Source: Geothrix oryzae (GTDB lineage Bacteria; Acidobacteriota; Holophagae; Holophagales; Holophagaceae). Taken from it: 64,000 nucleotides of DNA. Location of the stretch: the NCBI RefSeq assembly GCF_030295385.1, contig NZ_AP027079.1, positions 124,001-188,000 on the forward strand. Direction: 5' to 3'. Below the pieces are notes generated by a model. It did no database searches. It saw only the letters and a list, made by a program, of their open reading frames with translations, and was not told the origin of the DNA. The position numbers were made by a program, and so were the translations under genes. This document shows, one piece after another, positions 26,634-46,822 of the stretch; position 1 is the first letter of the stretch; each line of letters opens with the position of its first letter.

Positions 26634-26742
26634 CCTCTGCGGGACGCCATGCAACGGGTCATGGGCAACCGAAGTGAGCGGAACCCTTCCCGCGGCCGAG
26701 ACGAAGAGTCTTTCGGAGATCGCCTGCCGCAGCGTGAGGTAT

Positions 26743-45411: not shown

Positions 45412-46020
45412 CTACTGCTTCAGGCTCTTGAGGGCCACTTCATAGCGCAGGTAGGAGACGCCCCAGGTGCCATCGGGCTTCTTGAGGCAGCTGACGGTGA
45501 GGACCTTCGTGCCATCGAAGCCCAGGGCCATGTCCTTCACGATGGTGGAGGACCCGAACTGGCGGGCGGCGGAGTTGTCGGTGATGCCCATGTGGCGCAT
45601 CTTGCCCCAGGACTTGTCCGTGATGCCCTTCAGCAGGCGGTAGAGGCCGGCATTGAAGGCCAGGCGGGCGTCCTTCACCGGGTAGTCGTCGGTGGGACCG
45701 CCCGGCAGCTCGTCGAGCTTGGCGGCCAGGTGCTCGATGCCCAGGCCCTTGATCTCTTCGGGCGTGAGGGTGATGCCCAGTTCCTTCGCCTGCTTGTGGA
45801 AGTGCATGGCGGAGGGATAGACCACATCCGGCGTGATGGGGGCGATGAGGGCGGCGTGCTTGTAGTCCTTGCGCACCACCAGGTACTGCAGGTGGTAGAG
45901 GATGTCGGCGGGCTCCTTCGCCGCGGCGGGCGCGGTGGTGGGAATCGCGTCGCCGCCGCACCCGACGAAGGCGGGTACGAGGAGCAGGCTGGCGAGGGGC
46001 AATGCGAGAGAACGACGCAT
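45412..46020 (-). CDS. Putative lipoprotein of unknown function
   Basis: 202 residues. The N terminus MRRSLALPLASLLLVPAFVG is a lipoprotein signal with the lipidated Cys21 in a VGC lipobox. The mature part is predicted mainly helical (ADILYHLQYLVVRKDYKHAAL, LTPEEIKGLGIEHLAAKLDEL, FNAGLYRLLKGITDKSWGKM) with a C-terminal strand pair (KVLTVSCLKKPDGTWGVSYLRYEV) reminiscent of DUF4878/lumazine-like scaffold folds, but I do not recognise a family. Transcribed alone, divergent from the repeat-flanked region before rlmH. Confidence 0.75.
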   Translation of the reverse strand: MRRSLALPLASLLLVPAFVGCGGDAIPTTAPAAAKEPADILYHLQYLVVRKDYKHAALIAPITPDVVYPSAMHFHKQAKELGITLTPEEIKGLGIEHLAAKLDELPGGPTDDYPVKDARLAFNAGLYRLLKGITDKSWGKMRHMGITDNSAARQFGSSTIVKDMALGFDGTKVLTVSCLKKPDGTWGVSYLRYEVALKSLKQ

Positions 46021-46105
46021 GGAACTACCTCCGGGACGGGATGGTCAGGATGACAAGGATGGTGGAGCCAACCCGCTAGGCTGCCAAGGGAAATTCATCA
46101 CAATC

Positions 46106-46360
46106 AGATCTCATATCAGAATCCGACCCCGCCGCGATGATGCCAGGCAGGATGCACCGCAAGGCAACATGGTTTGTTGTTCAAGGGCCCTGACGCCGCG
46201 GGGCGCCTGCCTGGCTTCATCCCTGCGGGCGAGGGGTGGCGGGCGTCGCGATGCCGTGTCACGCTCGGATCGCCTAGTACCCGCTAGGCTTCCCTCGCGT
46301 TCCTTGCCTCGCTCGCCCGGCGCTCCTCGCGCGGCGGAGTGGGATTCTGATGTGAGATCT
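46106..46360. mobile_element. MITE-like 255-bp segment with terminal inverted repeats
   Basis: The outer ends AGATCTCATATCAGAATCC (46106-46124) and, inverted, 46342-46360 match at 18 of 19 bases; continuing inward (GACCCCGCCGCG against CACTCCGCCGCG) the match extends to about 31 bp with three mismatches. The interior of about 190 bp has no gene. No convincing target-site duplication is seen. The element ends three bases before the rlmH start codon and therefore supplies its leader and ribosome-binding region. A structured RNA is the alternative reading. Confidence 0.55.
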
Positions 46361-46363
46361 CTC

Positions 46364-46822
46364 ATGTATCCCATCTCCCTCATTGCTTTCGGACGCCTGC
46401 GCCTGGATCCCTGCCGGGATCTGGAGCGTCACTACCTCGACATGCTCCGGCCCTATGCGCGGCTGGAGGTGACGGAACTGACCGAGGGTAAGGGGGATCC
46501 GGCCCGCCAGCTGCGGGAGGAGGCCGAGCGCCTCCGGCCGAAGCTGAAGGCCGTGAAATGCCCGGTGCTCCTCACGCCGGAGGGAAAACTCCGGGACAGC
46601 GAGGCCCTGGCCAAGTGGCTGGGCGAGCGCATGGACCGGGGCGACAGCCTGGCCTTTGCCCTGGGCAGCAGCCACGGCTTCGATCCCGGCTTGAAGGCGG
46701 AGATCCGGGAGCAGCTGAGCCTGTCGCCCCTGACCTTCCCCCACGAACTGAGCCGGGTGATGCTCCTGGAGCAGCTCTACCGGGCGTTCACCATCCTCCG
46801 GGGCAAGGAATATCACAAGTAA
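46364..46822 (+). CDS. rlmH: 23S rRNA (pseudouridine-1915 N3)-methyltransferase
   Basis: 152 residues, family length. The SPOUT-fold SAM site is seen in LAFALGSSHGFDPGL, preceded by VLLTPEGKLRDSEALAKWL, and the C-terminal signature LSRVMLLEQLYRAFTILRGKEYHK is diagnostic for RlmH. It methylates pseudouridine 1915 in helix 69 of 23S rRNA. The ATG at 46364 gives the family N terminus MYPISLIAFGRLR; no strong ribosome-binding site stands before it because the repeat element ends there. Confidence 0.94.
   Translation: MYPISLIAFGRLRLDPCRDLERHYLDMLRPYARLEVTELTEGKGDPARQLREEAERLRPKLKAVKCPVLLTPEGKLRDSEALAKWLGERMDRGDSLAFALGSSHGFDPGLKAEIREQLSLSPLTFPHELSRVMLLEQLYRAFTILRGKEYHK

Follow-up and report, generated by a model that had tools for sequence, protein, structure and literature searches.

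A MITE ahead of rlmH in Geothrix oryzae, its several end types and its paired changes

MITEs are commonly regarded as deletion remnants that are bound to one IS and are lost with it. Passages of one account of bacterial MITEs, among them Chunjie of Geobacter uraniireducens and the QMITEs of Coxiella, describe short, gene-less elements with inverted ends and target duplications that are mostly intergenic and yield stem-loop transcripts, and they note that type II MITEs share only their ends with their IS (PMC10969869). Whereas those passages present bacterial MITEs as related to given ISs, the element considered here has one core with ends like those of two IS families, and its old copies stay paired (PMC10969869).

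Several other small elements invite comparison. TIMEs, the miniature elements derived from Tn3, offer a likeness in being about 262 bp long, non-autonomous, moved in trans and prone to mosaic derivatives; however, in the part of the source devoted to them it is their Tn3-like ends that are constant and their inner part that varies, whereas in the Holophagaceae element the core is constant and the ends vary (PMC4133298). The CIR repeats of Caulobacter and Brucella are likewise two-armed RNA structures with a linker and are conserved between genera but, as portrayed in the relevant passage, they are partly MITE-like at most and have no stem formed from the two ends, unlike the element described here (PMC2229807). 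RUP of Streptococcus pneumoniae resembles it in its IS-like ends, TA-containing target and proposed movement in trans; the passage on RUP names a single helper family, IS630, and describes no end change, whereas our element has several end types (PMC2229807). Three of these end types resemble the ends of IS5- and IS1182-family ISs in related genomes (G028, G020 and G065), as do the TNA triplets, but unlike those ISs the element carries no transposase. Among open-licence papers, judged by title or abstract opening, we found no description of the element or of a MITE with one core and the ends of several IS families.

If our reading is correct, a core that retains its identity as the ends come to match IS5 and IS1182 would represent another persistence route for non-autonomous elements, and the palindrome would supply a testable mechanism for the joint change of both ends. 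It would also carry a warning, namely that paired substitutions, the usual sign of a functional RNA, can accumulate in palindromes that are apparently immobile.

Structure of the element and its place at rlmH

The window, meaning the whole stretch of 64,000 nucleotides that was analysed, contains the element as a 255-bp segment directly ahead of rlmH (Table 1). The first-pass annotation had described inverted ends of 31 bp with three mismatches and 18 of the outermost 19 bases in agreement, and both counts hold: the arms at 46106-46136 and 46330-46360 are 31 nt each, 90% complementary (28/31 matching) and separated by 193 nt. Its description of an interior without a gene also stands, given that a 90-aa ORF lying over the element has no Pfam match and none of the reading frames stays open in more than 26 of 87 copies. 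The interior forms two long hairpins rather than plain spacer, and therefore the element as a whole folds as a three-way junction in which the inverted ends are the closing stem. Relative to 200 dinucleotide shuffles, of which none folds equally well in either case, the segment reaches z = -8.73 when folded as DNA and z = -9.65 when folded as RNA. About 14 bases of the usual left arm are missing from this copy.

Table 1. Coordinates of the element, its parts and the neighbouring rlmH features in the window
Feature	Positions	Strand	Basis or remark
Whole element (MITE copy, 255 bp)	46106..46360	.	Inverted ends, copies, empty site in 37/42 genus genomes
Left terminal inverted repeat, outer 19 bp, AGATCTCATATCAGAATCC	46106..46124	+	End comparison
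Right terminal inverted repeat, outer 19 bp	46342..46360	-	One mismatch to left repeat
Left core arm, hairpin modelled as R1	46133..46221	+	R1 score 66 bits for L001
Right core arm, second hairpin	46229..46330	+	Borders approximate, from alignment
rlmH coding sequence including stop codon	46364..46822	+	ATG three bases past element; PF02590
Conserved block upstream of rlmH	46082..46104	+	Present in genomes with and without element; possible promoter region

The proposed position of the element, ending three bases before the rlmH start codon, is likewise upheld, as the protein read from the ATG at 46364 matches PF02590 (RlmH family) at 136.6 bits against a cut-off of 27. Comparison with genomes that lack the element, which had been suggested as a check, finds the rlmH site empty in 37 of the 42 genomes, out of 47 searched in the genus, that gave an rlmH match; G002, whose RlmH is 97% identical, is among the 37. 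In five species (5/42 genomes) the element lies in identical orientation between the conserved block and the start codon. The claim that the element forms the rlmH leader and brings its expression signals is thus sustained in part: its right end supplies the sequence directly before the ATG, but the conserved block still lies upstream, and a search of 45900-46500 found neither a promoter nor a terminator consensus. Judged from its position in the sequence, the element is a candidate leader of rlmH. Throughout the genus the block itself is conserved, and in most empty sites its end lies six bases short of the ATG, so the rlmH mRNA might be leaderless at those sites.

Of the first eighteen left-end positions, five vary among the five rlmH copies, each time with the matching partner base in the right end; the single mismatch, in the G000 copy, lies elsewhere. 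This five-species series could serve as a natural case for separating selection from strand switching. The species with a filled site are dispersed across a tree built from flank and gene, which needs four changes of element presence (at least three by the starred branches), and the empty sequence differs from what precise excision would leave. Recombination between species at the rlmH site is therefore likely, and the scatter might reflect either losses or transfer.

Copies, host range and membership

The genome of the window (3,265,981 bp, one contig) yields nine matches, comprising eight copies (L001-L008) and one 65-base partial match. When the rlmH-side copy was searched against 60 genomes, 32 gave a match, namely its own and 31 of the 36 others of the genus, with 0 of 23 matching outside Geothrix. 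A covariance model built on the left arm was used for the wider searches and matches 41 of 47 genus genomes, its own included; across the class, under stricter filters by which weak matches may be lost, it matches 60 of 93 genomes (41 Geothrix and 19 of 30 from other Holophagaceae genera) and 0 of 16 from other families. These are the further copies in the genome and its relatives that the first-pass annotation had proposed to look for. One of the 19 matches, in G095, is probably a stray, misplaced Geothrix contig, since its copy L279 and copy L146 of Geothrix genome G017 are 99.8% identical over 1451 bases, flanks included, even though the two genomes are placed in different genera. The core pattern is present in 73 stretches of GTDB contigs, titled Geothrix, Holophagaceae or Acidobacteria except for one from Pseudomonas migulae (L249), which scores 14.2 bits (E 0.48) by the model and was taken as chance. 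Viral contigs gave 0 exact matches to the core pattern, and plasmids gave no match to one copy used as query.

Comparisons within the genus rest on 90 delimited Geothrix loci, chosen among the matches listed. The two ends match at 17-20 of 20 bases in 87 of these; the other three, partial as delimited, were dropped, although two of them are rlmH copies that were later delimited separately. A further 70 loci come from other genera and divergent Geothrix, with a detectable end pair in 58 (several of the remaining 12 are cut by contig ends or have a shortened right arm). After two elements were left out for length, the combined set holds 143 elements, one near-duplicate included; this sample favours high scores, and its wider part is also tilted towards elements with matching ends.

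TNA triplets flank 52 of the 87 Geothrix copies on the left and 48 on the right, and the two triplets are identical in 25 copies, 24 of which carry TNA. A control at shifted positions gives 5.2% TNA on the left, 3.6% on the right and 2.5% identical triplets. Target-site duplication is thereby shown for the family, while the triplets of the rlmH-side copy itself are unlike (TCA and TCT). In size, both this copy and the 87, which are mostly 270-272 bp, stay under about 500 bp. Short and gene-less, with terminal inverted repeats, target duplications, multiple copies and empty sites, the element is a MITE. The earlier description of it as MITE-like is borne out by these features and by ISs with matching ends in relatives, except that no such IS was found for the end type of the rlmH copy.

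REP and REPIN sequences are short, GTAG-tagged palindromes with a linked RAYT gene, and are moved by RAYT. Given the lengths and the TNA-flanked, IS-like ends found here, membership in that group is unlikely.

The borders of the element often coincide with the ends of genes. Rough gene calls located a stop on 84 gene 3' sides, and in 43 of these the stop codon falls at -3 to 0 relative to the border; an insertion into TNA on a stop codon would do little harm, fitting that border position. Gene orientation around 83 elements, from a rough codon score and without a genome-wide control, is convergent in 24, same-direction in 42 and divergent in 17, and we do not propose a preference for convergent genes from these counts.

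Some variants deserve mention in their own right. Bare palindromes, consisting of two ends and little between, occur in G093, G019, G028 and G074 (L385, L393, L394, L396 and L397, with L395 slightly longer) and look like deletion remnants that lost the core. An extra segment of ~42 bases with its own small hairpin occupies the same left-arm place in L003, L118, L129 and L142, from four genomes. It is present in L129 and absent from the orthologues L110 and L128; hence it either moves or is copied from one element to another. Finally, one copy (L281 in G076) adjoins a cluster of three tRNA genes, all of which passed Rfam gathering scores.

Paired change in the stems

We consider it probable that the rlmH-side element is an old resident MITE copy of the Holophagaceae, with helpers acting in trans and strand switching at its palindrome. 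To judge from the sequences of its ends, transposases of different IS families would move it in trans by those ends alone. Its palindromic form would allow strand switching during replication to copy changes at the stem from one side to the other, such that both ends change together, and occasionally to invert the core. In this way, old copies would stay paired, and a core might be handed on to a new transposase. At rlmH, one end type and one orientation are shared by all five species, and the copy has since undergone paired change in situ.

Pairing in the left arm is beyond doubt. Among 117 distinct rows of an alignment fitted to the model, opposite-strand matches included, 92.6% of cells are paired compared with 34.9-41.4% for slid partners, and each of the 36 pairs shows change on both sides in at least one place. 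At the terminal stem, Geothrix copies were grouped by the state of their flanking triplets, using 72 of the 87 (one per orthologous site, leaving out six copies with unrelated or misdelimited ends): identical TNA (n=22), non-identical triplets with TNA on one or both sides (n=34), and neither (n=16). Paired substitutions in the ten inner end pairs rise through these groups as the triplets decay (0.36, 0.74 and 2.31 per copy), whereas one-sided substitutions do not (0.45, 0.59 and 0.56). Between the first and last groups, the paired difference was reached in 0 of 20,000 permutations and the one-sided comparison gave p 0.40; the paired trend was repeated with 81 copies. Thus, old-looking copies have an altered terminal stem and yet stayed paired. 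Alternatively, copies without TNA triplets may owe their insertion to another transposase and need not be old.

Flanking sequence identified six orthologous sites, and at two of these the core is inverted in place. L013 and L092 are identical at 0.641 as they lie and at 0.955 with the core turned, and L093 and L124 at 0.649 and 0.874, respectively; in both flips the break falls inside the stem and the flanks are kept. By comparison, the four same-way orthologous pairs reach 0.84-0.97 as lying and 0.61-0.65 turned. Six same-way comparisons at four orthologous sites other than rlmH contain 0 paired changes and three to eight one-sided changes each. Since these recent orthologues differ by one-sided changes alone, either the process that keeps pairs is slow or paired differences were inherited from other copies.

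As the source of paired change we prefer strand switching at the palindrome, with selection on RNA as the main rival. According to this alternative, the element is equally mobile, but its resident copies are structured RNAs in which mutations are compensated rather than copied, with suggested roles in transcript-end protection or insulation and, at rlmH, as a 5' leader. The two-sided variation and high pairing of the left arm, as well as the frequent placement of borders at stop codons, speak for it. RNA constraint predicts G-T in excess of A-C, and over 73 left arms the 36 pairs comprise 2290 Watson-Crick, 192 G-T, 36 A-C and 89 other cells, with G-T conserved at three pairs. However, these three columns contribute 130 of the left-arm G-T, and the remainder stands at 62 G-T versus 35 A-C. 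Over all stems of the 87 Geothrix copies the count of 278 G-T versus 82 A-C falls to 116 versus 82 outside two nearly invariant G-T columns, which is near strand symmetry. Furthermore, the core flips require strand exchange regardless, and presence of the element at rlmH is not conserved. We therefore regard selection on RNA as an unlikely source of the paired changes overall, albeit one to be taken seriously, and we read the data as a mostly DNA-level process with possible RNA constraint in the left arm. The first-pass annotation had treated compensatory changes as favouring a structured RNA instead of a mobile element, which proves to be a false choice because such changes are seen here on a multi-copy mobile element.

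End types, candidate helper ISs and the remaining alternatives

The eight copies in the genome of the window carry four end types, GATCTCATATCAGA (the rlmH copy), GAGGTCGTAACAAAACCC, GAGCGCCTAACAAAACCC and GGGTCTGTTTTCAAATTCC, and the wider set has at least 15 as counted by eye, the inverted ends that frame the core being about 17-20 bp long. Three end types resemble the ends of complete ISs, twice from the IS5 family and once from IS1182. The first is an 869-bp IS5-type IS in G028 with ends GAACGGCTAACAAAACCC and GAGTGCCTAACAATAC and flanks TTA/TTA; it exceeds the cut-offs for PF13340 and PF01609, and its first frame, at 104.2, falls below the cut-off of 110 for the NCBIfam IS5 family NF033580. 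An 865-bp IS5-family IS with GGCCTGTTTTCAAAGTC is found in G020, where there are ten PF13340 matches and a score of 141.9 bits for NF033580, and G065 has a 1480-bp IS1182-family IS with GAGCCTGTCCAAGTA (381.9 bits for NF033551, cut-off 270). A transposase with the same ends, which had been proposed as a check, was therefore encountered for three end types in other genomes, but not for the rlmH end type and not in the element's own genome. The latter has no PF13340 or PF01609 match, and a search there with two end types found no autonomous partner and three 3-mismatch sites, of which one was inspected. The 3-mismatch match at position 26736 of the window was rejected, as the 501 bases read contain neither a second end nor the core.

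A broader proposal, to which we would assign somewhat less than an even chance, casts the element as a transposable passenger able to outlast its helpers. A single ancient core would have repeatedly taken the ends of unrelated transposase families, with both ends renewed by strand switching, and immobile copies would have been kept paired, with flipped cores, as lasting hairpins beside host genes such as rlmH. The cores of L134, with an IS1182-type end, and L002, with an IS5-type end, are 84-85% identical despite their unlike ends, and in a single genome (G093) L312 and L314 have cores that are 87% identical and different ends. Within each of the 143 elements the two ends agree at 14-16 of 16 bases, partly owing to the way in which elements were chosen, whereas in the listed pairs with 93-96% identical cores the ends agree at just 7-10 of 16, a level that shuffled ends also reach (mean 7.6 of 16, 95% at most 10). 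These odd ends, which have no known helper, may have arisen in place.

In a tree of 75 elements, left arms and right arms form two clades, with the exception of L314 and L315, which had been anchored on the opposite arm. Thus, the two-armed plan looks like the product of one origin, with ends that changed later. A repeated origin of arms by foldback duplication is unsupported given these two clades; similarity is 0.748 between an element's own arms and 0.747 between arms of different elements (shuffled, 0.766), and one earlier set of arm identities was excluded because free-end gapped alignment inflates identities.

It is also conceivable that ends drift stepwise with the evolving transposases of one broad superfamily and are never exchanged between IS families, which would suit the 56 distinct 16-base left ends of the 87 Geothrix copies, many of them one substitution from another, and the steady length near 270 bp (270 in 34/87 and 272 in 26/87). 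We find this doubtful because the helpers fall in two named families, because the GGGTCTGTTTTC and GAGCCTGTCCAAG ends are separated by 8 of 16 bases from every other left end among the 87 copies, and because the L134/L002 and L312/L314 pairs combine similar cores with unlike ends. The explanation that we prefer, a resident MITE with helpers in trans and strand switching, has points against it as well: no IS with the rlmH end type was found, recent orthologues show one-sided changes alone, the left arm has a G-T excess, and the triplets beside the rlmH copy are unlike. A non-mobile cis-acting regulatory RNA of rlmH, whether attenuator or riboswitch, might be suspected from the position three bases before the start codon and the paired changes between five species, but we consider it extremely improbable because the element is missing at rlmH in 37/42 genomes, occupies many other sites and brings no Rfam family near its gathering score; these other copies refute the strict form of that reading, and a secondary role at rlmH could still exist.

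End pairs like GGAGCCTG also occur ~500 bp apart in G089 (L389 and L390) with a different inner repeat alongside, and these are perhaps another gene-less element with the same end type.
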